Below are positions 6,495 to 27,763 of a stretch of 27,763 nt of DNA, one piece after another (within the stretch, counting starts at the first letter, position 1; every line of letters begins with the position of its first letter). Made by a program: the position numbers and the translations under genes. The notes beneath the pieces are model-generated. The model worked only from the letters and a program-made list of their open reading frames with translations. It searched no databases and was not told the origin of the DNA. Source of the DNA: a virus; the IMG/VR virus record IMGVR_UViG_3300035698_011776, positions 1 through 27,763 of that record. The stretch is one strand, 5' to 3'.

Positions 6495-9400
6495 TTATAT
6501 CCCATGTGCTTTCCAGCTAATAGTGCCGGTTCTTTCAGTAGCACCCCTATCTATTATTTTAATCGTTACTCCTTCTGTGTCAAGGCTCTCGTAGACCCAA
6601 TCAACAGCTTCACCAGAATTAATTTGAATATCTAGCTGAGGTGCCTCATGGAAAGTCTTAGCAAAAACGATATCAACACCGCTTGCTGCAACTGTTATTG
6701 TCCCTGTTCCAGTATCATCAATGTCTGGGAGATCAGCAATAATAACAAACGAACTTATTTGTAAAGCAATATCGACAGAATCCCTAGTTGTTGTCGCTCT
6801 TACTTGAAAATATCTACAAGTATAATCAGCAAAAGACCATTCCTCCCAATCGCTCCATGTTGAATTATCTTCAGATGTTCGGATTTCTACTAAAGTATTG
6901 CTTGGAGTTTCTAAGCCAGAAAATCGCATAGTTGCACTATCGTCAAACCGCCTTGTTGGATCTGAATCCCAACTTAAGGATTGATTAATAGTCGTAATTA
7001 TATTTACCATTACTCGGACATCACAAATATAGCCAAGATCTTTTATGGACGAATAATAAGCTTGCGATAATTCACCGGTTTCAAAGGCTAAGTTTGCGCT
7101 AGAAATATAATATCCACTACCTCCAGTTTCTTCTATAACTCTGAACATCATGTCAGAATCAGAAACAAGATTCCAAGTTAAGGTCCCGCCATTGTAACGT
7201 GTCATATTCCCATCAGCAAATGCCGATGAAGATAAGTCTGCTCTCCACGCAACATAAACAGTATCACTCTTAGTGTATCCACCCTGTAAAACAATCCAAT
7301 ATTTTGTTGATCCAGTTAAATCTACATTACTCTGCATTAAGAATCTTATCCACCGAGCAGTCATTCCGATAGAACTAGCCTCAACTGGGTAAGAAGTTGC
7401 AATAGGGGTGCCGTCAGGCTCGCCTGCGCTATCGCCTTCAATCGTAACCCAAATCTGATTAGTATCTGCTAATGAACTTGAACTAGAAGAACTCGACAAG
7501 CTAGATGAACTTGAACTCGACGAACTGCTAACAAACATAGAACTCGATGAACTAGAAGAACTTTCTGATAAACTCGAAGAACTTAAACTCGATGAACTTG
7601 AACTAGAAGAATTTAAACTCGATGAACTTGAACTCGAAGAACTCGATGAAACACTAGCATAAGAACTCGATGAACTCGATGAACTTGAACTAGAAGAATT
7701 TTGACTTGAACTCGACGAACTCGAACTAGAAGAATTTTGACTAGAACTCGATGAACTGCTTACTGATAAAGAACTTGAACTAGATGATGATGAACTTGAT
7801 GATAAAGAACTTGAACTAGAAGAACTCGATGAAAACACATTCCCTGTTTCTATAAGTTTAAGCATTACTTGTTCTAATGTTATAGCACTTCCCGGAGTAA
7901 AAGATTGAGCAAGTTTTTCATAATTTGTAGTAACAGCTCTTAAAGGATATTCACCATCTTCGGTTGCAACACAATAAATATCTGAATTGTCAAGCCAATT
8001 TGTATGTTCATTATAAGTTTCTACTATGTTTTGAAAAGGAATATTAGAAATTGTTATAACTGCTTCTGTTGCATTAACAGAATAGTTTCCAAAATTATCA
8101 ATCGCCTTTATCCAATAAGATTGATCGGTTCCTATTCTTATATCCGGTAAAGCATCTCTAACCCCGAACACAGGAGTTTTAACAATACCACCAGAATTCC
8201 AATCCGTCCCTTTTCTAATTTCATATTTTTGTACATCCGGCTCGCTTGACTTATCCCAAGAACAAAATAATACATCGCGATTTTTCTTAACAATAAAACC
8301 ACTAACAGCCGCAGGATTAGCATCTTTTCCAATAAGCCTTAATTGATCAGAAACAAATCCGTCAGAGTAAATTCGGTTATCAGAAATTGTTTTTATCCTA
8401 ACATTATAACCTTCGTTAAATTCAAGATCTTGCGTTATTACATAATGCGAAGTTGTCTTATTAGCATTAGTTACAAATAAATAGTCACCAAATTCTTTTT
8501 TTATTTCAAGAGTATACCCGACAAGCCTATCGTAACCGGTAGCGGGAGGTGTCCAATTTACATGTATTTGTGAAATATGAACTCCGTCAGCATTTCTCCA
8601 ACCAACTTCACTAAGAATAATACTAGAAACTTCGGCTATAGGAGCATAAGGATTCTCCGGAGAACCATAATCCCAATCCTGGAAAGAAGAACCATGCGCA
8701 TCGTTTAACAAAGAAGAATTATAAGCCTGGCAAATAAATTTTGCTTTGCCATATTCTGTTTCAGTTATTTCCATTACTCTAAATAATGCGGCTGTCCAAT
8801 TTGGCCTTGAATGGGTTACAGAAACAACGTCCATTGGTTCACAATGCAACGCTTGCATACCGCATTCAAACTCACACCATATATCATTTATTTTTGATTC
8901 ATACATTATCTTTCGGCCAATTCTTGACGCTTGGCTTTGACGAATAATTCCATTGCATTCGATAGTGCTATCGACAATTCCTCTAAAAACTTGATCGAGT
9001 TCATCTTCAATAACTTCAACTCGTTTTGGATTTTTACTTTCAAGCGGAGATATATATTCAACACTTAATTTATTTGCGTTTTCTTCTCCTCGGCCATATC
9101 CATAAGTAAAAGAATCTTTTAAAATATTATTTTCTGTAAAAGCCATAACTGCGGTTTCATTAGCTTTTTCGTATGCTATTTTATATTGCGTTCCACTTTT
9201 TATTAAAGAGGCATTACATGTAATAAGAATCCTAGAAAGGTTATCTAAAACAGATCCTTTTTCATCTATAACTAAATCAAGTTCATAGCGAGGTTCAGTT
9301 CCTCCGCTACCATTATTTATTTCTTCAGCGCAGTGTTCAAAAAAATCACCAAAACTTGCATTGTTAATAAATTTTTCATCTAAACCTGCTCCACCTAATA

Positions 9401-10085
9401 CTTGGCTTAAGATCAAATAATCTCTTATTACTGCGCTTGTATTTTTAGAAATATTTACTGCATTTGCTGTCCAGTTTTCGCTAGTCGAATTCCATGTTTG
9501 TATTTTTCTTCCTGTAAGTTCTACGGTAACTACAGAATTACTACTTACCTTTTCTCCTGCTTTTAAAGTAACTGCAACATAAGCAACATCCCTTAACCCT
9601 TTAACTGTCCCTGCTCCTCTTGAATCAACCGTTTGGCTTGAAGTCCCTAAGTATGCAGTATAACTACAGTCAGTAAAGTCTGCTATATCTTGATCGTCAA
9701 GTTTAACATTACTTATGGCCGAAACTTCTCCTGCGGAAATGGCTAAAAATCTTTGTACCGTTATGCCTGGTTCTGATTGCCAGATTATATTACCACCCAT
9801 AACCAGTGGCCCACCATAAACAAGCGGTAAAATTCCCGCATTAGAATAAGTATTATCAAGTCCGGGTCCATAACGGCTAGAAGTAGGTTTAGTTTTTTGG
9901 CGTTGAGATAATGAGTAAGCGATAGAAGCTACAGTCATTGCAGCTATAAATGGATGTAGCCAAGCATAGTCAACTATCCAAGCACCAACAGTCCAGATAA
10001 TTGTTATTGGATTTGCATGTGCTTGCCTAATGGCAAGCAATGTAAAGAAGATGAAGAACAAAAATATTTGTTTTAATTTTCCCAT
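6495..10085 (-). CDS. J-like central tail hub / tip attachment protein
   Basis: 1196 residues, overlapping the NlpC-like gene by 13 bases; the SD is weak. Hydrophobic segments lie at about residues 7-24 and 28-60, followed by RYGPGLDNTYSNAG and ILPLVYGG, a hallmark of J-type hub proteins. Residues about 70-470 form the hub. About 478-690 hold fibronectin III-like repeats (VNWTPPATGYDRLVGYTLEI). A beta-sandwich of the choice-of-anchor type starts near 725 (AQSFTPGSAITLEQVML). It is interrupted by a 120-codon Ser-rich tract (752-871) and resumes with IWVTIEGDSAGEPDGTPIA. The C-terminus (FHEAPQLDIQ ... GTISWKAHG) resembles tip lectin-like domains. It should form the trimeric hub that contacts the host and triggers DNA release. 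Confidence 0.88.
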   Translation of the reverse strand: MGKLKQIFLFFIFFTLLAIRQAHANPITIIWTVGAWIVDYAWLHPFIAAMTVASIAYSLSQRQKTKPTSSRYGPGLDNTYSNAGILPLVYGGPLVMGGNIIWQSEPGITVQRFLAISAGEVSAISNVKLDDQDIADFTDCSYTAYLGTSSQTVDSRGAGTVKGLRDVAYVAVTLKAGEKVSSNSVVTVELTGRKIQTWNSTSENWTANAVNISKNTSAVIRDYLILSQVLGGAGLDEKFINNASFGDFFEHCAEEINNGSGGTEPRYELDLVIDEKGSVLDNLSRILITCNASLIKSGTQYKIAYEKANETAVMAFTENNILKDSFTYGYGRGEENANKLSVEYISPLESKNPKRVEVIEDELDQVFRGIVDSTIECNGIIRQSQASRIGRKIMYESKINDIWCEFECGMQALHCEPMDVVSVTHSRPNWTAALFRVMEITETEYGKAKFICQAYNSSLLNDAHGSSFQDWDYGSPENPYAPIAEVSSIILSEVGWRNADGVHISQIHVNWTPPATGYDRLVGYTLEIKKEFGDYLFVTNANKTTSHYVITQDLEFNEGYNVRIKTISDNRIYSDGFVSDQLRLIGKDANPAAVSGFIVKKNRDVLFCSWDKSSEPDVQKYEIRKGTDWNSGGIVKTPVFGVRDALPDIRIGTDQSYWIKAIDNFGNYSVNATEAVITISNIPFQNIVETYNEHTNWLDNSDIYCVATEDGEYPLRAVTTNYEKLAQSFTPGSAITLEQVMLKLIETGNVFSSSSSSSSSLSSSSSSSSSSSLSVSSSSSSSQNSSSSSSSSSSQNSSSSSSSSSSSSYASVSSSSSSSSSSSLNSSSSSSSSLSSSSLSESSSSSSSSMFVSSSSSSSSSSLSSSSSSSSLADTNQIWVTIEGDSAGEPDGTPIATSYPVEASSIGMTARWIRFLMQSNVDLTGSTKYWIVLQGGYTKSDTVYVAWRADLSSSAFADGNMTRYNGGTLTWNLVSDSDMMFRVIEETGGSGYYISSANLAFETGELSQAYYSSIKDLGYICDVRVMVNIITTINQSLSWDSDPTRRFDDSATMRFSGLETPSNTLVEIRTSEDNSTWSDWEEWSFADYTCRYFQVRATTTRDSVDIALQISSFVIIADLPDIDDTGTGTITVAASGVDIVFAKTFHEAPQLDIQINSGEAVDWVYESLDTEGVTIKIIDRGATERTGTISWKAHGI
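7473..7832 (-). repeat. poly-Ser tract inside the hub (120 codons)
   Basis: Residues 752-871 are nearly all Ser, in runs of 7-10 broken by single L, V, Q-N, Y-A, M-F or E residues. Codons alternate between TCN and AGY. It sits inside a beta-sandwich domain rather than at its edge. Confidence 0.95.
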
Positions 10086-10498
10086 GTCGGCCTATAGATT
10101 GCGAATATTTTATGTTTAATATATTCTAATTTAGTTAAACATGAACCAACAATTAAGTGCATGTGTAGAAACTGCTTTCCTCCAATATAAACTCCCATTG
10201 CGCCTTTTGTTTTATGTGTTTTTAAAAGAATAATGTCGCCCGCTTTAATATTTTTAATTAAGACTTTTGTTGTAAATGTCCTTAAAGTGCTAATCATAAT
10301 AGGAACATCATATTTTTTATTTCTAAATATTGACATCTTAATATCATGTCCAGGAATTTCTTTATCATTTATTATTTTGTGATACAAATAAACAATCCCT
10401 CTGCAATCGCATCCTTCAATTGTAATTCCATTTAATTTAAAAGGAATGCCAATTAAAAAATTTAATTTATTTTCGCAAAGGGATGGAGTGAAATCCAT
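10073..10498 (-). CDS. NlpC/P60-like tail tip protein (K-like), His missing
   Basis: 141 residues. The ATG at 10498 is preferred because GAGGA lies about nine bases upstream; an in-frame ATG at 10519 has no SD. The fold signature is present: catalytic-type Cys32 in CDCRGIVYLYH, a GD turn at 87-88 (KAGDIILL) and the strand GVYIGGKQFLHMH. In active family members the residue before this strand is His (HxGxYxG); here it is Ala100. His112 and His114 follow in the usual LHH-like place. The family cleaves peptidoglycan peptide bonds during DNA injection. This copy may be weakened, or use another His. Position between the L-like and J-like genes is canonical. Confidence 0.72.
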   Translation of the reverse strand: MDFTPSLCENKLNFLIGIPFKLNGITIEGCDCRGIVYLYHKIINDKEIPGHDIKMSIFRNKKYDVPIMISTLRTFTTKVLIKNIKAGDIILLKTHKTKGAMGVYIGGKQFLHMHLIVGSCLTKLEYIKHKIFAIYRPTWEN

Positions 10499-11327: not shown

Positions 11328-11340
11328 TATTATCCTTTTA

Positions 11341-12135
11341 TTATGTGCTTAAACTAGAACTAGAAGAACTCGACAAGCTAGATGAACTTGAACTCGATGA
11401 TCCAGTAGAACTGCTTGAACTTGAACTTGATGCTATCGAAGAAGAAGAAGAAGAAGAACTTGAGCTTAAACTTCCAGAATAACTTGAGCTAGAACTCGAA
11501 CTAACGCTAATAGAACTACTTGATGAACTAGAACTTGACGAGCTAGAATTACCGTTTGTTGGAACATAATAATCCCACCTTACTTCTTTTAATGCCATAC
11601 CAGTATGAAGTAATTGATAAGCGGCCAAAACTCTTGTTAATTTATCTTCTTGGAACCTAACTCTAAAATAAAATTCGTGCGACAATAAAATTGTACCGCT
11701 CGCAGGGGGAGTATTAAAAACAATATAAGATTTTTCAGTAATATAATTATTAATTAAAGAATAACTAGTTTCCGCAACTCCGTCTACTGTACAAGAACTG
11801 TTGCCAGAAGTATCTACAGGGAAATTTGCAAGTAAAAAAGAATCTTCTGACGCGTCACCAACGCCTACAGGTTCGTTTGTAACTATATATTCATGTTCTA
11901 TTTTAATTAAAAAATCATCCTTAGAACCTTGTCGTTCAATAAAAAATTCCCAGATAACATCCATTGCTGCTTTTGTTAAAAATTTGCAAGTTAGTTTATA
12001 ATCTCTTATTCCATCATCCCATAAAGAATCCCTATATTCTTTACCACTTTCAGATTCGGTTATGTTTGTTCTAAATGAAATCGATTCTTCTAATCCAAAC
12101 TCTGGCGTTAATGATAAAATATGATTATATCCCAT
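11341..12135 (-). CDS. distal tail protein, M-like / DUF2460-type, poly-Ser tail
   Basis: 264 residues, ATG with AGGA. Residues 1-196 are the folded part. EYRDSLWDDGIRDYKLTCKF and DVIWEFFIERQGSKDDFL follow the pattern of the DUF2460/minor-tail M family, which links the tube to the hub. FYFRVRFQEDKLTR and the final ALKEVRWDYYVPTNG close the domain. Residues 197-264 are a Ser tract with scattered I, V, Y, G, L, A and T that ends two residues before the stop (LST). The folded part is complete without it, so the tail is an appendage. Its DNA shares a 41-base identical block with the hub tract. Confidence 0.72.
   Translation of the reverse strand: MGYNHILSLTPEFGLEESISFRTNITESESGKEYRDSLWDDGIRDYKLTCKFLTKAAMDVIWEFFIERQGSKDDFLIKIEHEYIVTNEPVGVGDASEDSFLLANFPVDTSGNSSCTVDGVAETSYSLINNYITEKSYIVFNTPPASGTILLSHEFYFRVRFQEDKLTRVLAAYQLLHTGMALKEVRWDYYVPTNGNSSSSSSSSSSSSISVSSSSSSSYSGSLSSSSSSSSSSIASSSSSSSSTGSSSSSSSSLSSSSSSSLST
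11344..11547 (-). repeat. poly-Ser tract, C-terminus of M-like protein
   Basis: 68 codons, dominated by Ser with mixed TCN/AGY codons. A run of TCT codons (+ strand GAAGAAGAAGAAGAAG near 11441) is the only homogeneous stretch. Confidence 0.93.
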
Positions 12136-12139
12136 TTTA

Positions 12140-14065
12140 TTATCCTAATTTTTGAGAGGTTCTGCGCAATGAAAGATTATCCCTGATACCTCTTTCGCTT
12201 GCACTTGTATATATATCTCCATGACGTTGTAGATGTTCTCTGAACGACTTAACATCAATAGTATTTATATTGTAAGTATTCCCACCACCATTACCACCAA
12301 CACTACTTTGTCCATTATTTAATTTATCAAGATTGCCAACACCGATAGTCCTAGTAGCTTGACGATTTAAAACATATTCACCTGACAATAAAGTGGCCGG
12401 AACTTCTCCACCGTTATGAAATTTCTGCCGAGGACGCATTCCGTAAGCCATGCCTTCTCTTACCGCACCTCCGGTATGAGAAAAACCTAAAAATCCACCT
12501 GCACCTGCACTCTTTAAAGTATTCATTATTATTATATTCGCAATAACTTCCATTATAGATGCAAGCATCTTATCGCCGAAAGCAACAACAGCATCGCTCA
12601 ACCCTTGCATGTCGCCTTTAACAGCATTCACAAATCCATCTTTAAGCATATCTCTTGAGCCTATAGTAAAATCGGATAGCATTGATTGAGTTGCTCCAAT
12701 TAATTCTAAAATACTCTGCTCGGATTGTTTCCCTTCTTCTGATATAGCAAGGATTCTTTTTTTTCTTGCAGCCTCATTCTTTTTCGCTCCTGCTTCAAGT
12801 TTTGCATAAGAATCAATAGCATCCTCACCCAAGTTTAATATTTCTTTACCCATTTGCTTAACGGATTCCTGAGAATTTTCCGCCATAAAACCCATTGTCG
12901 TACCAAACTCTTTTGCTCTTTCAGACGCATCCATTAAAGCCTCGGCTTGATTTTTTAATCCGGGAATAAATTCAGCAACTTTCGCGAGCATTTCAATAAA
13001 GTGAGCAGCGTTATTTGCAAGAGAGGCAAAACTACTAGCAACACCGGCCAAGAACACATGCATTGATATCATAAAAGTCATCCATACTGCTCTTATCGTA
13101 GTAATTATTCCAATCATTCCTGCGCCAATCTTTAACCAGACACTATAAAAACCATTTGAACTTTCAGTTGCATCTTCAACTGAACCTTGCATTTCATTAA
13201 AACTATCACCAATCATCCCAAGGGCAGAAGCAACGACAGGAGATTTAGTTATTATAAAACCAAGCGATTCTTTAAAATCTCCTACGGATTGATTTGTTAT
13301 ATCTACCGTTCCTTTAAAGGTAGCTCCTAAAGCTTCGGCTGTTCCGCCAACACTCCTTTTTATATCTTTAAGAATATCGTCAAACTCTCCATACTTTTTT
13401 GTAGTTTCGGAAAGATTAACACCTGAGCGTTGTAATGTAGAAACTTGGCCATCAAAAGCTTGCCCTAAAATCCTTGCGGTTGCAGTCAAATCTTTAGTTG
13501 AGCCATCTGCCTTACGAGTTCCGGCATTAAGATCTAAAAGTGCCGGAGTAGCTTTTCTTATCTGAGCCTCAGTTAATCCAAAACTTGCAAGCATTCCTTG
13601 TGATGCAATTATTTGATCATCACCATAGCCAGTAAGTTTTTGTAATTCACTTGCATAATCCTGCAGTCTTTCGGCCGAGCCTTCGGTAGCTTTCCCTGTA
13701 GCATGGAATGCAGAGGCTAAACGAATTTCAGCATTTTCTTGTGTCATGGCCGCGGCAGTTAAATCTCCCACAATTTTCATAACAGGACGCATGATAAAGA
13801 AATAAACAAGTAACTTGTTTCTTAAAGAACCAATAGCGCCTTCTAATGCGGCTATTGATCTACCTTGCATCCGAGCTTTTCGACCAGCTTTTTCATGGGA
13901 TTGGCCCATTTTCTCAAGATCAAGTTGTGTTCCTTTGCCTACGGTTTTGAGAGCGATACCCATTTTTTTGGCACTATCTGTCATGGCCTTATTAGCGGCA
14001 ACAAACTTATTTGTAGCTTCGTCTTTAAATGTTAAATAGACTTTAAATTTTTCGTCGTCGCCCAT
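12140..14065 (-). CDS. tape measure protein
   Basis: 641 residues. ATG at 14065 is chosen because AAGGAGC lies seven bases upstream; a TTG two codons earlier is too close to that site. The N-terminus is helical and rich in Lys/Ala (KAMTDSAKKMGIALKTVG). About 80-270 matches tape-measure repeats (AEIRLASAFHATG, DDQIIASQGMLASFGLTEAQ, ATARILGQAFDGQVSTLQRSG). Hydrophobic segments at about 308-360 suit the membrane-inserting part. The C-terminus has the typical HTGGAVREGMAYGMRP and LLSGEYVLNRQATRTIG. It fixes tail length and exits before DNA. By the usual ratio of about 0.15 nm per residue the tail would be near 95 nm. The gene is the largest between chaperone and tip genes, as expected. Confidence 0.92.
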   Translation of the reverse strand: MGDDEKFKVYLTFKDEATNKFVAANKAMTDSAKKMGIALKTVGKGTQLDLEKMGQSHEKAGRKARMQGRSIAALEGAIGSLRNKLLVYFFIMRPVMKIVGDLTAAAMTQENAEIRLASAFHATGKATEGSAERLQDYASELQKLTGYGDDQIIASQGMLASFGLTEAQIRKATPALLDLNAGTRKADGSTKDLTATARILGQAFDGQVSTLQRSGVNLSETTKKYGEFDDILKDIKRSVGGTAEALGATFKGTVDITNQSVGDFKESLGFIITKSPVVASALGMIGDSFNEMQGSVEDATESSNGFYSVWLKIGAGMIGIITTIRAVWMTFMISMHVFLAGVASSFASLANNAAHFIEMLAKVAEFIPGLKNQAEALMDASERAKEFGTTMGFMAENSQESVKQMGKEILNLGEDAIDSYAKLEAGAKKNEAARKKRILAISEEGKQSEQSILELIGATQSMLSDFTIGSRDMLKDGFVNAVKGDMQGLSDAVVAFGDKMLASIMEVIANIIIMNTLKSAGAGGFLGFSHTGGAVREGMAYGMRPRQKFHNGGEVPATLLSGEYVLNRQATRTIGVGNLDKLNNGQSSVGGNGGGNTYNINTIDVKSFREHLQRHGDIYTSASERGIRDNLSLRRTSQKLG

Positions 14066-14788
14066 GTTCAAGCTCCTTTAGTGGATTATCTTTATTCTCT
14101 GCCATTGCTGAATCTAATATATCAAATACTTGCATTATTTTATTTGGCTGTTCTTCTGAACCCCCAGAAAAAGGTAGCCATCCTTTTTTATACCGATTGT
14201 ACATTCTTATATAATCATTTATTTGTGAGGGTAATTCTTTTGCCGGACATCTTTCAGTGAATTTTACTCCATCTACTTCTATCGGTTGCATCGGAGTATC
14301 TTCACACCCTCTAAATTTCTTCAGGCCATCGTTACAATTCTGGCAGCTTAAGCCCAGGTTAGATAATATAACTGCCAGTTTTATTTTTTTTCCTCTTCCT
14401 CCTTGACATTGTTACTGCCCCAAATTTCCATAGCAAGTTTATGGATAGCATACAACGGAATCATTTTTAATGAATCTAAGGTTACGACATCCAAATCTTG
14501 TTTTGCAACTTTTTCTTTTTCAAAAATAAGTTTAACTTCTTTGCCTTCTAATATCCAATTTCTAGTCCCTTTAAGACCGTACTTACAAATTTCAAAATCA
14601 TTACTTACGATATCATCGCCCATTGAATAGACAGGTTTTCCGTCAACAATTTCAAGGGTTCCTACACCGGCTATTACTTTTGACGCTAATACAGAATCAA
14701 GAGATCCAATAATCCAAATAGTAGGATTCTCTTTATCTGATTCTAATGTATATTCTCTTGTCAGTCCGACTGCAATAGGATCTATCAT
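14043..14788 (-). CDS. tail assembly chaperone frameshift fusion (GT-like)
   Basis: A -1 slip at A AAA AAA (14384-14390) joins the 135-residue chaperone to 113 further residues. The new frame runs without a stop from 14384 to TAA at 14043-14045, giving about 248 residues. The extension starts IKLAVILSNLGLSCQNCNDG and continues through GCEDTP and MQPIEVDG to TERCPAKEL and a helical tail (NDYIRMYNRYKKGW). It contains Cys pairs CxxC, GC and RC that can form one metal site. Starting at the ATG at 14291 would lose three of the four Cys, and that ATG has no SD. Lambda gpGT works the same way: its T part binds the tail tube protein. The end overlaps the tape measure start by 23 bases. Confidence 0.82.
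14340..14404 (-). promoter_or_regulatory. programmed -1 frameshift signal
   Basis: Three elements follow each other on the minus strand. An SD-like AAGGAGG lies inside the coding region at 14398-14404. Seven bases later comes the slippery heptamer A AAA AAA (14384-14390), part of a run of eight A. Five bases after that a stem-loop starts: CTGGCAG (14372-14378) pairs with CTGCCAG (14340-14346), extended by one G-U and one A-U pair. The zero-frame stop TAA sits directly after the heptamer. The same three-part layout drives frameshifting in E. coli dnaX. Confidence 0.85.
14381..14788 (-). CDS. tail assembly chaperone, zero-frame product (G-like)
   Basis: 135 residues, ATG with AAAGGAG eight bases upstream. 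The sequence is acidic in its C-terminal third and ends WGSNNVKEEEEKK just before TAA. It lies immediately upstream of the tape measure, where lambda gpG, which coats the tape measure before tube assembly, is found. The last codons GAA AAA AAA are the slip site for a -1 frameshift that extends it into the next frame. N-terminal GLTREYTLESDKENPTIWIIG resembles the chaperone start found in many siphophages. The family call rests on position plus the frameshift signal. Confidence 0.8.
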   Translation of the reverse strand: MIDPIAVGLTREYTLESDKENPTIWIIGSLDSVLASKVIAGVGTLEIVDGKPVYSMGDDIVSNDFEICKYGLKGTRNWILEGKEVKLIFEKEKVAKQDLDVVTLDSLKMIPLYAIHKLAMEIWGSNNVKEEEEKK

Positions 14789-14800
14789 TACTAAACTCCT

Positions 14801-15286: not shown

Positions 15287-15300
15287 AAAGCTCCTTTTAC

Positions 15301-16281
15301 TTAAGTGCTAGATGAAGAACTTGAAGAACTCGAACTTGAACTAGAGGCCATCGTTAATGTAAGTTCATCATTTCCACTATCAGAATTTTTACAAATTTCA
15401 CACACCGCATTAACAACCGCGATTCCACCTCTATCTCCAGCTTTTTGAGTGATGTATCTTACTGCCGGCAATGAGAATGTTGTTTTATTTCCTTGCGAAT
15501 CACCAAGAACAATTGTAACGGCTGCAGTCGCTCTTGATAAAAGCTTGCCGATAAAATCATGGCTAGACATTGCAACAAGTTCTGGATCAAAACTCATTTG
15601 CGGATTACGGCCAGTTACTTGAGCATAATTAATCCCACTAGCATCAGACGGTAATGCAGAAAGCACAATTTCATTTTGCATATCTATTTCGAGATTATCT
15701 AAAACCAATGTGCTTCCTAATATAGTAACACTTGCACCCATAAATAACATAGGTACTTGAGCCGGATATGTAGGAGAAAGCATAGCCTCGTCAGCATGAC
15801 TTGCATATTTTCCTTGCATTGCAAACTCACACATTATCGGTTCGCCAACTTTCATCTGGAATTTAACATTCCCAGCACAACCAAGCATATTCTTTCTAAA
15901 ACCATCAATGTAATGCGCGATAGAACCAGTTACAAAGCTTGATGAAATAGGAACAAAGATATTAGAAACTCCAACATCTAATGTTTCAGAAAATCCGCAC
16001 ATTCTTAAAAAAGGACTTATTGGTGTAGTAACTCCTTTTGCCGTTGTTAAAGGCCCCATTAATTCAGCTTTAAAAGCAAGATCCATCTTCCTAGCTCCAA
16101 CTTCTGAAGCAAACCTCGACATGTGTTTTGTTACTGGATTCCTTTTAAACATTTCAGGGGACAAATCCATTACCGGTTCATACACAAGAATAGTAGCCTC
16201 TGTTGCTGTTAGCGTTTCTGCTGTTCCGGCTACTGATTCTACTTTACCTGCCAATTGAGCAATTCTAGTAATCTTACCCAT
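15301..16281 (-). CDS. major tail tube protein with short poly-Ser end
   Basis: 326 residues, ATG with AAAGGAGGG. The order tail terminator, this gene, morphogenesis protein, chaperone, tape measure identifies the tail tube subunit. VESVAGTAETLTATEATILV near the N-terminus is the usual opening of phage tube proteins. The rest is beta-rich, with a plausible second half in VPMLFMGASVTILGSTLVLD. The last 15 residues are AS with 13 serines in a row and T. The tube is a polymer of many hexamers, so even this short tail would appear in well over a hundred copies on the virion, if exposed. The C-terminal end of many tube proteins lies on the outside. Confidence 0.85.
   Translation of the reverse strand: MGKITRIAQLAGKVESVAGTAETLTATEATILVYEPVMDLSPEMFKRNPVTKHMSRFASEVGARKMDLAFKAELMGPLTTAKGVTTPISPFLRMCGFSETLDVGVSNIFVPISSSFVTGSIAHYIDGFRKNMLGCAGNVKFQMKVGEPIMCEFAMQGKYASHADEAMLSPTYPAQVPMLFMGASVTILGSTLVLDNLEIDMQNEIVLSALPSDASGINYAQVTGRNPQMSFDPELVAMSSHDFIGKLLSRATAAVTIVLGDSQGNKTTFSLPAVRYITQKAGDRGGIAVVNAVCEICKNSDSGNDELTLTMASSSSSSSSSSSSST
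15307..15345 (-). repeat. 13-codon poly-Ser tail on tube protein
   Basis: Thirteen consecutive Ser codons of mixed type, one residue before the stop codon. Confidence 0.95.
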
Positions 16282-17575: not shown

Positions 17576-17893
17576 TTACTTCGCGCTAGAGCTTGATGAA
17601 CTCACACTCTTTGACGAAGAAGATGAACTTGACAAACTGGAACTAGATGAACTTGAGCTTAGAGATAATGAACTCGAAGAACTTGAACTTGAGGAACTCG
17701 AATAATAAGTTACCCCATCGTCTTTTGCTTTTCGGTTCGGCACACCTCTATCTAAAACTCCCTTGCGATAATATAGAATGATGTTACATTCTTCTTTTCT
17801 AAAGTTATATGCTCCGCAAGCTTCGTTCTCACAAGTTATACCGGCCCCTGCATTGTCGTTTTTAAACGGACATAAATAACTAGGTGCTGACAT
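17576..17893 (-). CDS. Cys4 mini-protein with poly-Ser tail
   Basis: 105 residues, ATG with AGGAG. Residues 1-64 contain Cys8 (CPF), Cys21, Cys26 and Cys36 (ITCENEACGAYNFRKEEC), likely a zinc or Fe-S site. YYRKGVLDRGVPNRKAKDDG follows, then YY and a 41-codon Ser-rich tract with L, K, V and a terminal AK. A folded knob of about 60 residues on a serine stalk is an unusual combination. It lies between the head surface candidates and the connector, so it could be a head- or neck-associated accessory protein. The Cys pattern is shared with the protein at 3834-4193. Confidence 0.6.
   Translation of the reverse strand: MSAPSYLCPFKNDNAGAGITCENEACGAYNFRKEECNIILYYRKGVLDRGVPNRKAKDDGVTYYSSSSSSSSSSSLSLSSSSSSSSLSSSSSSSKSVSSSSSSAK
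17579..17701 (-). repeat. poly-Ser tract, C-terminus of Cys4 protein
   Basis: 41 codons. Ser runs of 6-11 are broken by L, K and V, with mixed codons. Confidence 0.93.
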
Positions 17894-17905: not shown

Positions 17906-18535
17906 TTAAGTTTTGCTTGAGCTAGATGAAGAACTCAAACTGGATGAACTACTTAAACTACTAGAACTTGAACTACTACTCAAACTAGATGAACTAGAGC
18001 TTGAAGAACTGCTCGACAAACTAGAGCTTGAAGAACTCGATGAAGAACTCGACAGGCTTGAAGAACTTGAAGAACTCGAACCAATACTTGAGCTTGAAGA
18101 ACTACTTGAGCCAATATAGCTTGAACTTGAAGAACTACTCAAAGACGAACTCGAAGAACTCGAAGAACTCGAAGAACTAGATCCTGTACCTGTAACATTT
18201 GGAGAAACAGCATACCAATAAGTTCCACTACACCAGAACTCAACAGTATCAAATGCCGTCATATTTATATAATCGTAATTTACTCCTCCACCACCAAAAC
18301 CACCGGAAACATAAACTCGCCCGGCAGAATCATCTGCATGAACAACTAAAGTAACGCCTTTAAGATTACCGCTCGCTGCCGGCAAAGTTAAAACAGCATT
18401 ACCACTTAATTTAATGAAAGAATATCCAGAACGGAAGATATCATCCTCTGTCAAAGAATAATCCGCTGCTTTTTCAAGAGCGGTTCCTCTCATTTGTGCT
18501 AAAAAATATTTAAAGGTTAATTTCTTACCTGCCAT
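17906..18535 (-). CDS. small head/surface protein with poly-Ser tail
   Basis: 209 residues, ATG with AAGGAGG. Residues 1-118 form a domain with AALEKA-like start (KYFLAQMRGTALEKAADYSL), LTPAASG-type strand LTLPAASGNLKGVTLVVH, then VYVSGGFGGGGVNYD and FWCSGTYWYAVSP. Residues 119-209 are a Ser tract with L, I-G and Y-I breaks, ending KT. Its neighbour downstream of the capsid gene (18588-18938) has the same domain without the tract. Two small paralogs just after the major capsid gene are typical for decoration or head-surface proteins. The exact role is inferred. If it decorates the head, several hundred serine tails would surround it. Confidence 0.65.
   Translation of the reverse strand: MAGKKLTFKYFLAQMRGTALEKAADYSLTEDDIFRSGYSFIKLSGNAVLTLPAASGNLKGVTLVVHADDSAGRVYVSGGFGGGGVNYDYINMTAFDTVEFWCSGTYWYAVSPNVTGTGSSSSSSSSSSSSSLSSSSSSSYIGSSSSSSSSIGSSSSSSSSLSSSSSSSSSSSLSSSSSSSSSSSLSSSSSSSSLSSSSSLSSSSSSSKT
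17909..18181 (-). repeat. poly-Ser tract, C-terminus of head surface protein
   Basis: 91 codons, Ser with L, I, G and Y. The antisense strand reads as Glu/Leu/Asp codons and creates a false acidic ORF. Confidence 0.93.
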
Positions 18536-18553: not shown

Positions 18554-18585
18554 TTAAGTTTTAAACTTAACAGTCTAAATTAGAC
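18554..18585 (-). other. two AT-rich palindromes between paralogs
   Basis: TTAAGTTTTAAACTTAA (18554-18570) and GTCTAAATTAGAC (18573-18585) lie side by side in the 52-base gap between the two paralogous genes, just upstream of the AAGGAGG of the second. They could fold as two small hairpins. There is no T run after them, so termination is unlikely. Confidence 0.4.
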
Positions 18586-18587
18586 CA

Positions 18588-18938
18588 TTAAGAGGCAGCT
18601 ACCGCTTCAGACATTGCATACCAATAAGATCCATCACACCAGAACTTAGAAGTACAATATGCGCCAGGGGTTACTGTGTCATAATTTGCTCCACCGCCAC
18701 CAAATCCACCGGAAACATAAACCGTTCCTGCGGCATCGTCAGTATGGACGAGAAGGCTTACGCCTTTTAAAGAACCACTTGCGGCTGGAAGAGTAAGCTT
18801 AAAAGCACCATCAACAATTATAAAACCATTCCCATCTTTGAGAATGTTATCTTCTGTTAAAGCTGTGTCCTCAGTGATAGTCTTAGCTGTTCCTCTTTTT
18901 TCAGCAATAAAATATTTCATTCTTGAATACTTTGCCAT
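18588..18938 (-). CDS. small head/decoration-like protein, no Ser tail
   Basis: 116 residues. ATG at 18938 is preferred because AAGGAG lies eight bases upstream; an in-frame ATG at 19022 would add 28 residues that run through a stable hairpin. The sequence matches the neighbour at 17906-18535 along its whole length: KYFIAEKRGTAKTITEDTAL, LTLPAASGSLKGVSLLVH, VYVSGGFGGGGANYD, FWCDGSYWYAMS. It ends EAVAAS where the paralog begins its serines. Gly-rich SGGFGGGG is the most conserved segment. It follows the capsid gene, as decoration proteins often do. No named family was recognised. Confidence 0.65.
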   Translation of the reverse strand: MAKYSRMKYFIAEKRGTAKTITEDTALTEDNILKDGNGFIIVDGAFKLTLPAASGSLKGVSLLVHTDDAAGTVYVSGGFGGGGANYDTVTPGAYCTSKFWCDGSYWYAMSEAVAAS

Positions 18939-18985
18939 GATCTTCTCCTTGTTAATATTAAGTATTTTGCGACCTAACAGGCTGT

Positions 18986-19010
18986 GCCGAGAGGAACCAA
19001 TCCCCCCGGC
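18986..19010 (-). other. stable GC-rich hairpin after capsid gene
   Basis: On the minus strand GCCGGGGGGA pairs with TCCTCTCGGC: ten base pairs, two of them G-U, with a five-base loop. It starts 18 bases after the capsid stop codon. No T run follows, so it is not a classic terminator. It is by far the most GC-rich stem seen in this AT-rich sequence. It could protect the 3' end of a capsid mRNA or set a processing point. Confidence 0.55.
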
Positions 19011-19027
19011 CATCGCCATCAATTAAT

Positions 19028-21613
19028 TTAAGATACTATTCCACCTGCGAAAGCGCGGAAGTCTGTTACTGCTCCACCGTATTCATGGCGAACTTTGTAA
19101 CGAATCGTATCATAGACAAATACATTACCAACCGTAGGCTGATCTTGTACTAAGATTTCCGGATCTTCTCTACCGTTTAAGAAACCCATTTCGATACCTT
19201 CTACATCAGCTAATTTAGATGACAGATAAAAGTTATTCTCGTCACCACGAAGGTAAGGAGTAACTGTAGGATCAAAAGAATCGCGAATAGAGTTAACTCC
19301 TCTTTCCATACTCTCTGGATTAAACTCAGATTTTTTCAACTGCATTGCAGTTCCACGCAAACTTCTTGGAACCCACAAATTCGGATTTTCAAGAGCAAGC
19401 ACCTGCGTTACTTTATAAACATCAACGCCCTGCGCATGTTCTGCTGCAGTTGTGCCATATACTCCTCTGGCAATAGTCAATGTATCTGTAGCAACAGAAT
19501 CTACACGACAAATTTCTCCGGCCATCCAGATTAAGTCGCCAGCTTTGAAATACTGACCGTCCCCGGTAGTCACAACAAGAGCTGTTCCGCCTGCAGTTAG
19601 AGGATCATCAACAACGTCAGTTTTTGTACCAAATTCTACTTGATAATACATATCATCAAGTAAATCTGACAGAGAATCATACCCTAATGCAACTGTACGA
19701 TAATTCTTATGTCCGGCCACAAACATCACAAGACCATCATAAATCGTAGCTACATTTATTCCAGTAGTACTATATCCAATCATCAGATCAAATACAAACT
19801 GGTTTAAAGTCTGAGCCGCTGCTTTTCCAACTTTTCCAGGGATAGCTGTCAATACTTTAAGATCATCGTCAATAATCATACGACGAGTTAAGGTAACGAT
19901 TCCACCCTTGGTTGCTACGGCGTAAGTTGCCTCTTCATCCGTAGGAAAACCGAGTTCTGGATAACTAGGAGTGGCTGAATCTATTGGTGTTCCGGCAACC
20001 GTTCTCGCATTCTGAACAGTAGGAAGTACACCAAACCCGCCCCAACGAATTCTTTCTTGCAATTTAAAATCCTTAATAGGAACAGATGTTGCAATCTTTT
20101 TCCATTGAGGATCAATAGCTTTATAAGCAGGCAACATTCTTCGTTGCATTGAATATCCTAATGCATAAGAAAAATCACCTTCAGTTGCTTCTTGTAATCT
20201 TGCCATAGCTTTCGGCCCAACGCGTCCAGTTATGTTTGGATCATCTGTAAAAGCAACATAAGCTTCTTTTAAAGAAGTAAATCCATCTATTCCTTCAAAG
20301 TCCGCTTTTTCTTCTTCTGTAGGATTATGCCCAAGCATTATATCCATAGAAGCTTGTAACTTAGTTACTTGATCTCTTTGTACAAAAGAGCCGTCATTCC
20401 CACTACCAAGATCAATAATGGATTGACTTTCAACTAACTGAGCCAATGTTGTTCTTTCAAGCTTAATTGATTCTTTAAGCTCTGCTTCTTTAAATACCTT
20501 GCCGTTAAAACTCTGACGGATTTTATTCCGTACAGGCATAGGTAAATTAGATTCACTCAAAGCAAGATCAAGCATTTCTTTACATTCGCGCTGTTTTAAC
20601 TTAGCTTCTAAACTAGTAAATTTGCTTTCAAGATCTTTATTTGTTGCATCCAAAGCATCTTGTTTTGCTTTAACCGCAAGATCATCGGATTCTTTTTTCT
20701 TCTTAAACATTAATTCTTTTTTCTTTTTCAACTGCTCTGGAGTAAGGATAGCATCATCCGCTTCCATTAAATCTGCATCATTCTTTTCTTGTTCGCCTTC
20801 AACAAGAGTTTTAAATAATGTTTCAGCTTCTTCAAACTTTTCACCTTTTATACTTGCTACGATTGATTCAATCGCTTGAGCATTTTCTGATTTTTTATCT
20901 ACAGCATCTTTAAGCACAGATTCAAAAATCCCAACAACTTCTTCTTGAGTTATATTTTCAATGTTCACATTCTCAAGTAAGTTAGGTCGCCACGCCTTAA
21001 GAGCTTCTAGCAACTTTTTAAACATAATTTCCATTCCTCCTGTTTTGTTTAAGCTTTCGACGAGAGCCAATAACCCGCCTCCGGCCGCTGGTTGAGTTAC
21101 GAAGTCTGTACTAAAAACTTTAGTAATCGCTTCAACAACTGTTATTGGCTGTCCATTTAACATTCTAACACTTGACGGTCCTTCGGCATTTATAGATAAT
21201 CCTAATAGATTTTTCAACCCTTTCTTCCAAGCTTCTGATAGCATTTGCTTTAATTCTTGAACTTTAGAACTTTTTTCAAGAAGATGCAAATACCCTGTAA
21301 GCCCGGACACCTCCCGGCCTTCGACGGCGAATGTTTCAAATTTAACGCCTTCCAACCAACCGGCAGTCTGTAAAGGGAATCCTTCAGGACGCATTTTTTC
21401 AATAGACATAGGCATGTGGTCGAACTTATTGTCCTTCCACTCATAAAAACAAACTTTAGATTTTTCAAATAATTGGATTGATTTCTGGAGAGCTTCTTTC
21501 GCGTAATACTTACCATTTTTAGACAGGCCTTCTTCAATTATAATGACCTTCCAAACATTACCTTTTTTTGAACTTTCAAGAAAGGTAGTAATTCCAAATT
21601 GATTTAATATCAT
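19028..21613 (-). CDS. prohead protease - scaffold - major capsid fusion
   Basis: 861 residues, start ATG overlapping the previous stop (ATGA). Residues 1-180 are a capsid maturation protease: LSKNGKYYAKEAL, His66 in FDHMP, QTAGWLEGVKFE, and Ser140 in LLGLSINAEG, then TDFVTQPAAGGG at the domain end. Residues about 197-400 are a charged coiled-coil scaffold (QLKKKKELMFKKKKESDDLA). Residues about 410-861 are an HK97-fold capsid protein with an inserted beta domain (FKAGDLIWMAGEICRVDSV, LTIARGVYGTTAAEHAQG) and the Mu gpT-like end FLNGREDPEILVQDQ ... YKVRHEYGGAVTDF. The three parts are usually separate genes. Auto-cleavage must release the capsid part. A second start at 21025 may make scaffold-capsid alone. 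Confidence 0.87.
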   Translation of the reverse strand: MILNQFGITTFLESSKKGNVWKVIIIEEGLSKNGKYYAKEALQKSIQLFEKSKVCFYEWKDNKFDHMPMSIEKMRPEGFPLQTAGWLEGVKFETFAVEGREVSGLTGYLHLLEKSSKVQELKQMLSEAWKKGLKNLLGLSINAEGPSSVRMLNGQPITVVEAITKVFSTDFVTQPAAGGGLLALVESLNKTGGMEIMFKKLLEALKAWRPNLLENVNIENITQEEVVGIFESVLKDAVDKKSENAQAIESIVASIKGEKFEEAETLFKTLVEGEQEKNDADLMEADDAILTPEQLKKKKELMFKKKKESDDLAVKAKQDALDATNKDLESKFTSLEAKLKQRECKEMLDLALSESNLPMPVRNKIRQSFNGKVFKEAELKESIKLERTTLAQLVESQSIIDLGSGNDGSFVQRDQVTKLQASMDIMLGHNPTEEEKADFEGIDGFTSLKEAYVAFTDDPNITGRVGPKAMARLQEATEGDFSYALGYSMQRRMLPAYKAIDPQWKKIATSVPIKDFKLQERIRWGGFGVLPTVQNARTVAGTPIDSATPSYPELGFPTDEEATYAVATKGGIVTLTRRMIIDDDLKVLTAIPGKVGKAAAQTLNQFVFDLMIGYSTTGINVATIYDGLVMFVAGHKNYRTVALGYDSLSDLLDDMYYQVEFGTKTDVVDDPLTAGGTALVVTTGDGQYFKAGDLIWMAGEICRVDSVATDTLTIARGVYGTTAAEHAQGVDVYKVTQVLALENPNLWVPRSLRGTAMQLKKSEFNPESMERGVNSIRDSFDPTVTPYLRGDENNFYLSSKLADVEGIEMGFLNGREDPEILVQDQPTVGNVFVYDTIRYKVRHEYGGAVTDFRAFAGGIVS
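21023..21041 (-). promoter_or_regulatory. internal ribosome binding site and ATG in capsid fusion
   Basis: AGGAGG (21036-21041) lies ten bases before an in-frame ATG (21023-21025) at codon 197, exactly between the protease and the scaffold. Initiation here would give a 665-residue scaffold-capsid protein beginning MFKKLLEALKAW. Another in-frame ATG at 21034 is too close to the SD. Confidence 0.5.
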
Positions 21614-21927: not shown

Positions 21928-21982
21928 TTTTTAGCTCCCTTTTAAAAGTAAATTAATAAAGTCTTTATTTATTTCTAATTAA

Positions 21983-22011
21983 AGTATCCCTTATCTTAGA
22001 ACCTTTGTCAA
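21983..22011 (-). promoter_or_regulatory. internal sigma70-type promoter for capsid genes
   Basis: On the minus strand TTGACA (22006-22011) is followed after exactly 17 bases by GATACT (21983-21988, four of six consensus). It lies in the 107-base gap between the portal-associated gene and the small head protein, about 55 bases before the GTG. The surrounding DNA is AT-rich (TTTTTTC just upstream). It would boost transcription of the capsid gene relative to the portal and terminase. Confidence 0.6.
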
Positions 22012-22034
22012 GAAAAAACTTTATAAAGACACTT

Positions 22035-24306: not shown

Positions 24307-25909
24307 AAATACTCTTCCTTTCTATCCTGTGTTTTCCTATCACCGCAAATGCCGAAGTAGGTTTAGAACCATTATCTTCTGGAGGTCGGATTACCTCTCC
24401 TTGTTTATTTAACATTGCAATCCCTGGATCTATGCCAACAACAACTCCAGCTGCTTTTGATTTAGGAAACAATTTATTAATTCCATATTCTAAAGCATTA
24501 ACTCCATGCGTAAATTTATTATCTACATGATCTGCGCCAGACTTATTAAGTGTCATGCTTTTAATACATTTTGCCAATGTGATACAAGAGGATTCTTTTG
24601 AGAAATTTATTTGCGGACGGCCACTAATTCTATTTTTAAGCGCAAACTTAACGCATTTCATTTTTTCATCATTACTTAATTCTCTTGATCGAATATTAAT
24701 AGCACCACCAGACACTTTTTTGTAATCATCGATAACACTTGTCTTTGTTTGGCGACTTCTTTTATTCCCAGACTTATCTCCAATGAATTCTATTTCCTTT
24801 ATTAAACCACGATAACCGATAGCATCAAGACATTTAATAAACTCATTGTATAATTCGTCTGTTAACATGTTGCGGTGAATTGCATATTTCAAAATAAAAA
24901 GTCTATCTTCAAAATCCTTTTGCGCAAAGATGAATACTTCTCCGTCAAGACCAAAATCCATAAAAACATATAACTTAGATTTTACATTTAGGTAAACTTT
25001 ATGTCCAAGCAAATGAACATTATCGGAATATTCAGGATAAGATCTATTTGTCATAGCTTTATCATACTGTCTTAGTATCTCCTGCGCTATTTCCTGTTCA
25101 GTCATAGACGCTGTTTTTTTATCAAACCATTCTTGAGTGTGCTTTGGATTCATGTGCCAATCAAATCCCATCTTAACAAACCCAGAGTTTCTAATATCTT
25201 TTATTTCAGCAAACTTATTATTAACACTTTCCGCAGGAGGTGTAGAATTTAAGCAAATAGTATTAGAAGCATTTCTTAACCCTTTCCACATTTCATCCAA
25301 ACAATCGACATGCGCGGCTTCATCAACAAATATAAATTTATATTGAGTATCTCGGCCAGCTTTTGAGTTTGCCGATTCTCCTTTAACAACAGAATTTTGC
25401 GAAGGTACTTGAAAAATTAAAAAAGGAGCATGTACTTTTGGTTTTAAATAAGGAGGCAATCTATCGTAACCAAATCTTAACCGGCCATGCAATGCATGAA
25501 AAGTATTCCCGGAATCTTGGACTTCTGATTCTTTTCTCGAAATATTTAAAGCAGTGAATCCTTTAGTATATAAAACTTGATGTAATTCCCAGAACATTAC
25601 TGTCCAAGATATTCCCATGTCCCTACATTTATCAATAAATAGATCTTGGTATTTATCTAATTGACCAATTAACTTTATTTGATAAGGATGCGGATAAAAA
25701 GGTTTAATCGCGGGTTCAGTTCGAGTATCGATTGTCCAAACATATTGATTAAACCAATATGTTTTATCTTCAACGATACGCCTATACTCGCCTATTTGAA
25801 AACGCTTTGCTTCAGATGCGCTGTAGCCAGAAATCTTCTTACGCCAATCAAAACGCTCATAAGGTTTCTTGATGATTACTTCTGGTATTATAATTTTACC
25901 TTCAGGCAC
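24296..25909 (-). CDS. terminase large subunit
   Basis: 537 residues. GTG start at 25909, with AGAGGAG ten bases upstream; no nearby ATG exists. The ATPase has a variant Walker A at 94-101 (KCRDMGIS), Walker B with the catalytic acid at 191-197 (KFIFVDE), and a coupling motif NSTP (ICLNSTPPAES). The nuclease begins near VFMDFGLDGEVFIF with its acidic Asp, then IEFIGDKSGNKRSRQTKT and DHVDNKFTHGVNALEYG near the end. It packages the genome into the prohead through the portal and cuts it. It overlaps the small subunit by eight bases. Confidence 0.93.
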   Translation of the reverse strand: MPEGKIIIPEVIIKKPYERFDWRKKISGYSASEAKRFQIGEYRRIVEDKTYWFNQYVWTIDTRTEPAIKPFYPHPYQIKLIGQLDKYQDLFIDKCRDMGISWTVMFWELHQVLYTKGFTALNISRKESEVQDSGNTFHALHGRLRFGYDRLPPYLKPKVHAPFLIFQVPSQNSVVKGESANSKAGRDTQYKFIFVDEAAHVDCLDEMWKGLRNASNTICLNSTPPAESVNNKFAEIKDIRNSGFVKMGFDWHMNPKHTQEWFDKKTASMTEQEIAQEILRQYDKAMTNRSYPEYSDNVHLLGHKVYLNVKSKLYVFMDFGLDGEVFIFAQKDFEDRLFILKYAIHRNMLTDELYNEFIKCLDAIGYRGLIKEIEFIGDKSGNKRSRQTKTSVIDDYKKVSGGAINIRSRELSNDEKMKCVKFALKNRISGRPQINFSKESSCITLAKCIKSMTLNKSGADHVDNKFTHGVNALEYGINKLFPKSKAAGVVVGIDPGIAMLNKQGEVIRPPEDNGSKPTSAFAVIGKHRIERKSIYER

Positions 25910-26492
25910 TTTCGCTTATCTCCTCTGCTGACAGCATTTTTTTATCATGTTCTTTTGTTGTTACTCCACCAAGTAGAAATACTTCTAATCTCATAAAGCG
26001 TTCTAAATCTTTTAAACTAGATTTGCCCATGAATTTAGTAATCATTTTACCTTCTCCCTCACACGCCTTGCATAATTCTTTTATGCCAGTTTCTGCATTA
26101 GGGATTTGAAATCCTTGGCCGTCGCAACAAACACAATCCTTTGGCGCCATTTTCTTTTCCAAAGTAGAAATTGTATCTCTTACGGTACTCAACATTGCTA
26201 TTCTTCTTTCCTCTAATAGCACATTGAATTTTTCAGAAATTTTATCTTGAAATAAAGTCAGGCGATAATGCAAGGGTTTTATACCTCGCTTAGAATCTCC
26301 TTCACGAAAATACTTTCGTGCAGTTTCAAAACAGATCTTTGTTTCTGCGGCTGCTTTTTTTAAAGACATTCCTTCTGCTAAAAAAGTAAAGAGTGAATCA
26401 ATTTTTTCCTGCGGTAAAGAATATCGATAACCATAATCAGCTTTTTTTGGTTTAGGTTTTTTTAAGTTATCCAACGATTTTTGATTTATCAT
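25902..26492 (-). CDS. terminase small subunit with DnaJ-like zinc hairpin
   Basis: 196 residues, ATG with GAGG about ten bases upstream. Residues 30-65 form a helix-turn-helix (LAEGMSLKKAAAETKICFET, ARKYFREG), the DNA-recognition part of terminase small subunits. A helical region (FNVLLEERRIAMLSTVRDTI) would make the ring. Unusually, residues 120-148 carry two CxxCxGxG motifs, CVCCDGQG and CKACEGEG, as in the zinc-finger domain of DnaJ. Position directly before the large subunit supports the assignment. It recognises the packaging site and recruits the large subunit. Confidence 0.82.
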   Translation of the reverse strand: MINQKSLDNLKKPKPKKADYGYRYSLPQEKIDSLFTFLAEGMSLKKAAAETKICFETARKYFREGDSKRGIKPLHYRLTLFQDKISEKFNVLLEERRIAMLSTVRDTISTLEKKMAPKDCVCCDGQGFQIPNAETGIKELCKACEGEGKMITKFMGKSSLKDLERFMRLEVFLLGGVTTKEHDKKMLSAEEISESA

Positions 26493-26493
26493 T

Positions 26494-26799
26494 TTAATGC
26501 GCCTCTTTCTTTTTAACTATAAAATCAATTACTCCTGTCCTTTTATCTACGGCTGTGTTAAATGTTGCGGTTATATAAGCAACATATCGGCCAACTGTAA
26601 GACTGATTGTTTTATATGTGATTTCGTTTCCGGAGATCACTGCAGCAGTTGACACTTGGAATGCAGTATCTACATCTACCTTCCATATTTCTATTAAACC
26701 ACTAGCGGCATCCGGAGTTTGTTCTACCCCATTTTTTTTAAAGGTTCCCCTAAGAGTAACTTCATCCCCTACATAATATTGCTCTGCTCTATTTGGCAT
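26494..26799 (-). CDS. small beta-domain structural protein
   Basis: 101 residues, ATG with GAGGAGG. The pattern is that of an Ig-like or beta-sandwich domain: YYVGDEVTLRGTFKKNGV, GLIEIWKVD, GRYVAYITATF, GVIDFIVKKK. Single-domain Ig-like proteins of this kind decorate phage heads or tails and bind carbohydrates weakly. It lies between the poly-Ser protein and terminase. The fold assignment is from strand pattern only, and no function is shown. Confidence 0.55.
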   Translation of the reverse strand: MPNRAEQYYVGDEVTLRGTFKKNGVEQTPDAASGLIEIWKVDVDTAFQVSTAAVISGNEITYKTISLTVGRYVAYITATFNTAVDKRTGVIDFIVKKKEAH

Positions 26800-26800
26800 T

Positions 26801-27763
26801 TTACCTCCTCGATATAAAATTATATTCGTGACTTGTATTTTCTAGTTTATATTCATGCGTTGTATCTTTTAATTTATATTCGTAAGTAACATCTTCAAAA
26901 ACAAACTCCGCAGGATGTGTTGAGCTACTTGAAGAAGATCCTGTTGAACTGCTTGATGAAGATGAACTTAAAGAACTGCTTGATGATGAAGAACTCGATT
27001 GGCTTGAAGAACTCGATGAACTCGACAAAGAAGAAGAACTAGAACTCGATGAACTCGATTGGCTTGATGAACTCGATGAACTCGACAAGCTCGATGAAGA
27101 ACTTGAACTCGATAAACTCGATGAAGAACTTGACGAGCTTAAAGAAGAAGAACTTGAGCTAGATGAACTCGATAAACTCGATGAAGAACTTGAACTCGAT
27201 AAACTCGATGAAGAACTCGAACTCGATAAACTCGATGAAGAACTTGAACTCGATAAACTCGATGAAGAACTTGACGAGCTTAAAGAAGAAGAACTTGAGC
27301 TAGATGAACTCGATAAACTCGATGAAGAACTTGAACTCGATAAACTCGACGAAGAACTTGAACTCGATAAGCTGAAAGAACTAGAAGAACTCGACGAACT
27401 CGAAACACTTTCCGCACTCGAAGAACTCGATGAACTGCTTGATAAACTACTTGAGCTAGATGAACTCGACAATGAAGAAGAACTCGAACTCGATAAACTC
27501 GATGAAGAACTTGACGAACTTAAAGAAGAAGAACTTGAACTCGATGAACTCGATAAACTCGACGAAGAACTTGAACTCGATAAACTCGATGAAGAACTTG
27601 ACGAACTTAAAGAAGAAGAACTTGAGCTAGATGAACTCGATAAACTCGACGAACTCGATGAACTCGATAAACTCGATGAAGAACTTGAACTCGATAAACT
27701 CGATGAAGAACTTGACGAACTTAAAGAAGAAGAACTTGAGCTAGATGAACTCGATAAACTCGA
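26801..27763 (-). CDS. giant poly-Ser protein, 5' end outside window
   Basis: The frame is open from the stop at 26801 to the window edge, so at least 320 residues are visible and the start is not. A TTG at 27472 lies inside the repeat and is not a credible start. About 281 residues are Ser runs of mostly 8 separated by single Leu, with a few Q, F, V, A-E and T-G breaks. The last 39 residues after the tract are THPAEFVF and three copies of a short beta-like unit (TYEYKLK, THEYKLE, SHEYNFI). The protein is a long serine-rich chain anchored by a small C-terminal tail domain. It is the first gene seen in the late operon, ahead of terminase. It may be a fibre, a secreted glycoprotein or a virion component. 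No function is known. Confidence 0.7.
   Translation of the reverse strand, partial: SSLSSSSSSSSSSLSSSSSSSSLSSSSSSSSLSSSSSSSSLSSSSSSSSSSLSSSSSSSSLSSSSSSSSLSSSSSSSSSSLSSSSSSSSLSSSSSSSLSSSSSSSSLSSSSSSSSSAESVSSSSSSSSSFSLSSSSSSSSLSSSSSSSSLSSSSSSSSSSLSSSSSSSSLSSSSSSSSLSSSSSSSSLSSSSSSSSLSSSSSSSSSSLSSSSSSSSLSSSSSSSSLSSSSSSSSQSSSSSSSSSSLSSSSSSSSQSSSSSSSSSLSSSSSSSSTGSSSSSSTHPAEFVFEDVTYEYKLKDTTHEYKLENTSHEYNFISRR
26921..27763 (-). repeat. 27-base periodic Ser8-Leu repeat
   Basis: Most units are 27 bases (Leu plus eight Ser), with occasional 33-base units (Leu plus ten Ser). The marker GACGARCTT recurs at 27132, 27273, 27513, 27600 and 27714. Its spacings of 141, 87 and 114 are sums of 27 and 33. The tract reaches the window edge. 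Confidence 0.92.

Follow-up and report, generated by a model that had tools for sequence, protein, structure and literature searches.

Glycosylation of phage virions is already known from mycobacteriophages, in which, according to PMC12619734, capsid and tail-tube subunits carry C-terminal glycans with a shielding role (Freeman et al. 2023, as described there). The TibC/AAH enzymes are GT-B heptosyltransferases with a four-Cys iron finger in the C-lobe (Cys339/342/358/370 in TibC) that modify Ser, not Thr, and place many modifications on each substrate (PMC4358343). Polyserine linkers have been mentioned for the genomes of Saccharophagus and Teredinibacter (PMC2386152, PMC2699552). Such linkers belong to secreted enzymes that degrade polysaccharides.

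We analysed a 27,763-nucleotide stretch of viral DNA (hereafter the window), together with its relatives. As in the mycobacteriophages, the phage is predicted here to glycosylate its own virion. However, at least six proteins, the capsid protein not among them, carry the long poly-Ser tracts that are the presumed acceptors, and the linked enzyme is a four-Cys glycosyltransferase of the GT9 family. The enzyme resembles TibC/AAH in being of the heptosyltransferase type and in having four conserved Cys, a likeness that we take as a lead only. Its Cys spacing differs from that of TibC/AAH and its presumed substrate is poly-Ser on phage proteins. With the Saccharophagus and Teredinibacter proteins the phages share long Ser tracts between carbohydrate-related domains, whereas many of the phage tracts are free tails and track GT9. 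Ig-like domains are accessory C-terminal modules on phage tubes, heads and tips. The Ser tails are likewise C-terminal additions to these classes of virion proteins, but here tails that are presumably disordered replace the folded domains. A literature search for poly-serine with phage and metagenome found no paper, and the poly-Ser/GT9 form appears to be undescribed in the literature searched.

Serine tracts of the window

The sequence-only reading of the window had named six tract-bearing genes, and a poly-Ser tract was found at each of them, always on the minus strand (Table 1). Its figure of about 600 codons holds once Leu and the remaining spacers are added; the Ser codons alone number 527. 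The tract of the tail-tube candidate has just 13 Ser, and the gene that had been called M-like encodes a DUF2460 protein. The tail-tube candidate had no match in Pfam, PHROG or PDB, and the names of the tube, tape measure and head-fibre genes were given from gene order. Behind DUF2460 follow BR0599, NlpC/P60 and Phage-tail_3, an order familiar from the tail tip of the gene transfer agent RcGTA, with its Dit, hub, peptidase and megatron. The gp1 tract is followed by a C-terminal motif of about 40 aa (DVTYEYKLKDTTHEYKL...).

Table 1 Features of the window and their serine tracts
Feature	Coordinates	Strand	Serine tract	Basis or remark
gp1	26801..27763	minus	26921-27763, Ser/Leu, 246 Ser	Start of the structural operon as visible in the window; cut by the contig end
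Capsid fusion	19028..21613	minus	none	PF25209
headA, headB paralogue	18588..19022	minus	none	About 55-59% identical to headB
headB, head-fibre/decoration candidate	17906..18535	minus	C-terminal, 17915-18181, 78 Ser	After the capsid gene; gene order
Small Cys protein	17576..17893	minus	Tail, 17585-17701, 34 Ser	
Tail-tube candidate	15301..16281	minus	C-terminal, 15307-15345, 13 Ser plus T	Gene order
Tape measure candidate	12140..14071	minus	none	Length and position
DUF2460 (Dit-like)	11341..12135	minus	Tail, 11353-11547, 55 Ser	PF09343, E 4e-20
Phage-tail_3 hub/megatron-like protein	6495..10085	minus	Internal, 7473-7832, 101 Ser	PF13550, E 1.5e-11
Relative of a cassette/gp1-region gene	5505..6491	minus		About 36% related (G009)
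Collagen-like ORF	2269..2691	minus		Signal-peptide-like start, then GADGADGAD repeats; two 36-bp repeats
Radical-SAM-like ORF (by eye)	668..1513	plus		Cys motif NKCGFCF; strand opposite the late genes

Across the 24 genes of the window, 513 Ser lie in runs of at least five. There were 59 such runs against 0.016 expected from the Ser frequency outside the tracts, and the longest run reached 13 Ser, compared with at most 7 in 200 shuffles preserving every Ser. The tract codons are a mixture of AGY and TCN, in which neighbouring Ser with the same codon are rarer than expected (11% vs 23%) and switches between AGY and TCN are commoner (68% vs 47%). These features exclude a simple trinucleotide microsatellite, so that an origin by repetition of one codon was rejected, and indicate that the residue Ser, not the DNA triplet, is what is kept. 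Tandem repeats at the DNA level are present in gp1. The tracts of one genome shared more 15-mers (0.080) than those of different genomes (0.034) and more often had a spacer residue in common (overlap p = 0.0005), suggesting that the tracts probably spread by intragenomic duplication and exchange. A poly-Ser peptide query gave no match in the window although the tracts are present.

Tracts in related viruses

With the window capsid protein as anchor, 33 viral loci and one contig of a metagenome-assembled genome (MAG) were found, in which the homologues of window proteins were mostly about 45-80% identical. A DUF2460 query returned no relatives; one of its patterns fell in the tract. Among the related viruses that have the gene, a tract was present in headB in 15 of 15 and in both DUF2460 and the Cys protein in 11 of 11; it was also present in all 13 aligned homologues of the tail-tube candidate and in gp1 of every relative where this gene was found. 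The hub had a tract in five of ten relatives and none in the other five. No tract was detected in the capsid, portal, terminase or tape measure proteins of any of about 15 related viruses. A survey of related genomes for tracts at the same genes had been proposed earlier as a check, and in it no close relative had lost them, only the hub tract being sometimes missing. The distant Microcystis phage Mae-JY22, whose capsid protein is 33% identical, has neither tracts nor GT9.

The spacer residue is Leu in the window, Phe in G009, Arg or Cys-Arg in G001 and Ile in L014. Tract length varies in frame among strains otherwise about 97-99.7% identical, in repeats that assemble poorly. In relatives, gp1 has an N-terminal region of 100-400 residues, and in some of them its tract extends over about 800-900 residues. 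As a separate observation, two ORFs take the place of gene g16841 in three loci (L003:3018-3374, L005:4187-4534, L014:12613-12960), the first piece of the split gene having a new tail of 14-16 Ser and a stop.

Glycan cassette and its GT9 enzyme

Upstream of gp1 and on the same strand, a GT9-like gene was found in all six full-length relatives (G001, G002, G003, G008:C5, G009 and G010), linking a phage glycosyltransferase to virion genes in 6/6. Its variable partners in the cassette include an NDP-sugar epimerase/dehydratase, a DegT/DnrJ aminotransferase, LicD, and methyltransferases (a CmcI-type rhamnosyl O-methyltransferase, a C-methyltransferase and others). In G001 and G008:C5, GT9 opens a longer protein of 912-934 aa whose end is weakly GT4-like. 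For the protein from G009, the AF2 model shows a heptosyltransferase-II-like domain joined to an O-methyltransferase. No GT2 glycosyltransferase was found in seven records. The window contig contains no GT9; it ends inside gp1, short of the cassette position, and the window virus presumably carries the cassette beyond this end. The product of 5505..6491, related to a gene of this region in G009, may be a virion protein that binds carbohydrate and has changed its position. Two further cassette proteins, A7 (L104:7306-8343 and homologues) and A8 (L104:5947-6789), are conserved and glycosyltransferase-like (DxD-type motif; GT9-like), with no significant family or structure match. The predicted structure of A7 was unusable (pLDDT 50).

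Sequence and profile matches and a predicted GT-B fold assign the enzyme to GT9 (heptosyltransferase-like). PF01075 (Glyco_transf_9) was above the cut-off in G003 and G396-G398 and below it in G001, G002, G009 and G010. The GT9 alignment matched 1psw in a PDB profile search (E 2.6e-6), as did the G009 model in Foldseek (E 6.6e-9; mean pLDDT only 62). Four Cys are invariant in 52 GT9 sequences. No match to four GT9 queries was found among the cultured phages of INPHARED. Membership in TibC/AAH (BAHT) was considered and is unsupported: the similarity to TibC is not significant (E 0.18 with profile A10, and not among the matches listed for A12), the Cys are spaced differently and the barrel is missing. 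Indeed, the 333-aa form in L021 has its GD motif at residues 13-14, leaving no room for the 97-residue N-terminal barrel of TibC.

GT9 and serine tracts in unrelated phages

A DNA pattern derived from the tracts matched, in addition, phages of an unrelated group (L017, L020 and L021), in whose tracts Ser is combined with Gly, Ala or Pro. These phages encode a GT9 above the Pfam cut-off. ORFs that are sulfotransferase-like and methyltransferase-like by eye (L021:3551-4309 and L021:2879-3610) adjoin Ser-tract genes there.

A scan with the GT9 alignment found 174 relatives, of which 80 were kept. Ser tracts occurred at 50 of these 80 loci, compared with one of 80 random loci, and the density of tract ORFs was about 40-fold higher (62.7 vs 1.6 per Mb, the random loci being shorter in total, 633 kb vs 1,419 kb). 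After clustering at 60% identity and exclusion of the window's clade, strict tracts were present in 26 of 44 independent GT9 clusters vs 1/80 random loci (Fisher 6e-14), and relaxed tracts in 41 of 44 vs 11/80 (Fisher 5e-19). The closest tract ORF was within 500 bp of GT9 in 20 of 47 cases. In 87 of 89 such loci, none of the window proteins had a homologue within the stretch compared. Where tract proteins near GT9 matched any family, they matched fn3, F5/8C, glycine-rich and tail-fibre families. The GT9-bearing uncultured phages include contigs of up to about 550 kb.

The converse association, from Ser tract to GT9, is only partial. GT9 was present in 10 of 29 poly-Ser-pattern records (8 strong) vs 4 of 45 tract-free pattern records (2 strong; p = 0.013). 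Ordinary bacterial GT9 enzymes also score with profile A10, at about E 1e-8 to 1e-14, so that the weak matches in this comparison carry little weight. Many of the Ser-tract records that have no GT9 are fragments, yet some large ones also have none.

Function of the tracts

The best explanation, to which we give a probability of about 0.78, is that the tracts are virion-protein acceptors for phage-encoded Ser O-glycosylation by GT9 and the variable cassette. The consistent pairing of GT9 with Ser runs, in the relatives and in many unrelated phages, suggests that the particles are probably sugar-coated by their own genes. GT9 with its four-Cys insert would put the first sugar on Ser wherever tails and linkers are exposed, at the head fibre, the tail tube, the Dit ring, the hub and the long gp1. 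The sugars would be made, lengthened and methylated by the variable enzymes that this late cassette also encodes. The outcome would be a flexible glycan brush around the particle, which in some members may tether carbohydrate-binding-type domains as well. Ser as the acceptor residue, the identity and linkage of the glycan, the presence of the modified proteins on the particle and a biological role in shielding or adhesion are what we infer from these genes. GT9 could also act on a different target.

Glycan attachment had already been suggested from the window sequence. It is now strongly supported, although glycosylation itself is a prediction, and the gain comes from outside the window, namely from the cassette in 6/6 full-length relatives and the specific association of GT9 with tracts elsewhere. 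The earlier reading had not included the stalks: in several relatives the tracts also carry extra domains, for instance a galactose-binding F5/8C-like one. The main function is most likely that of an acceptor for O-glycosylation, with the stalk as a secondary role.

On balance, we also favour the wider proposal that a dedicated GT9 with a four-Cys insert, poly-Ser tails on predicted virion proteins and a fast-changing sugar cassette form a widespread, undescribed system in many unrelated uncultured phages. If so, many environmental phages would build their own sugar coat from simple acceptor sequences and an enzyme that they encode themselves, and this variable, self-made coat would be comparable to serotypes. 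Such a coat would bear on how phages escape clearance, bind surfaces and reach their hosts. The GT9/poly-Ser pair is recognisable from sequence and would thus single out the uncultured phages whose virions are glycosylated; it also offers a small, testable pair of enzyme and acceptor.

Alternatively, the tracts may be unmodified hydrophilic linkers or entropic brushes that give displayed domains reach and flexibility. They do lie between domains in the hub, gp1, headB of some relatives (with an F5/8 type C-like, galactose-binding-type domain past the tract; PF22633 E 2e-6 in L007) and a few DUF2460 copies (that of G010 has a further ~430 aa beyond the tract). The Saccharophagus and Teredinibacter linkers are a precedent, and the in-frame length change between near-identical strains fits a spacer. 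However, nothing lies past the tails of the tube, the Cys protein and most DUF2460 copies, where no second folded domain is joined, and the specific association with GT9 is left unexplained. We regard plain linkers as unlikely.

It is quite improbable that the targets of the cassette are phage DNA or the surface of the host and that its link with the tracts is indirect, for example because the same hosts favour both. Some phage glycosyltransferases are known to modify DNA or host serotype (PMC12619734), and the partial converse association would fit. On the other hand, among 80 loci with a DegT aminotransferase, own clade excluded, tracts were present in 7/7 with GT9, which may be interrelated, vs 1/72 without it (p = 2.8e-9), the single exception being a 6.6-kb fragment; tracts are thus almost lacking in phages that have sugar genes without GT9. 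Moreover, GT9 sits between Ser-tract genes in the L021 group and directly after such a gene in many loci, and in the candidate host MAG a 12-Ser pattern is essentially confined to the phage contig. Neutral or selfish repeat expansion, to which the tandem repeats of gp1, the strain-to-strain differences in length and the greater sharing of tract DNA within than between genomes would be owed, is scarcely credible because codon mixing far exceeds that of a microsatellite and because the tracts recur in the same genes of diverged viruses and in none of the capsid, portal, terminase and tape measure genes.

Candidate host and genome form

One relative (L060, G008:C5) is a 66,997-nt contig binned in a 1.9-Mb MAG. 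Its 127-bp terminal repeat indicates a phage genome that is circular and was binned together with the MAG, rather than a proven prophage. The binning points to a possible host phylum, whose listed genomes measure about 0.7-3.5 Mb; among 384 genomes of that phylum, no close capsid relative was found besides this contig. A poly-Ser habit of the host proteome was rejected, as the MAG has only two weak sites of the 12-Ser pattern outside the phage contig. Several other records (L044, L045, L047, L051, L053 and L059), from several metagenomes, are all 63,847 nt long and differently rotated, indicating a complete, circularly permuted genome.
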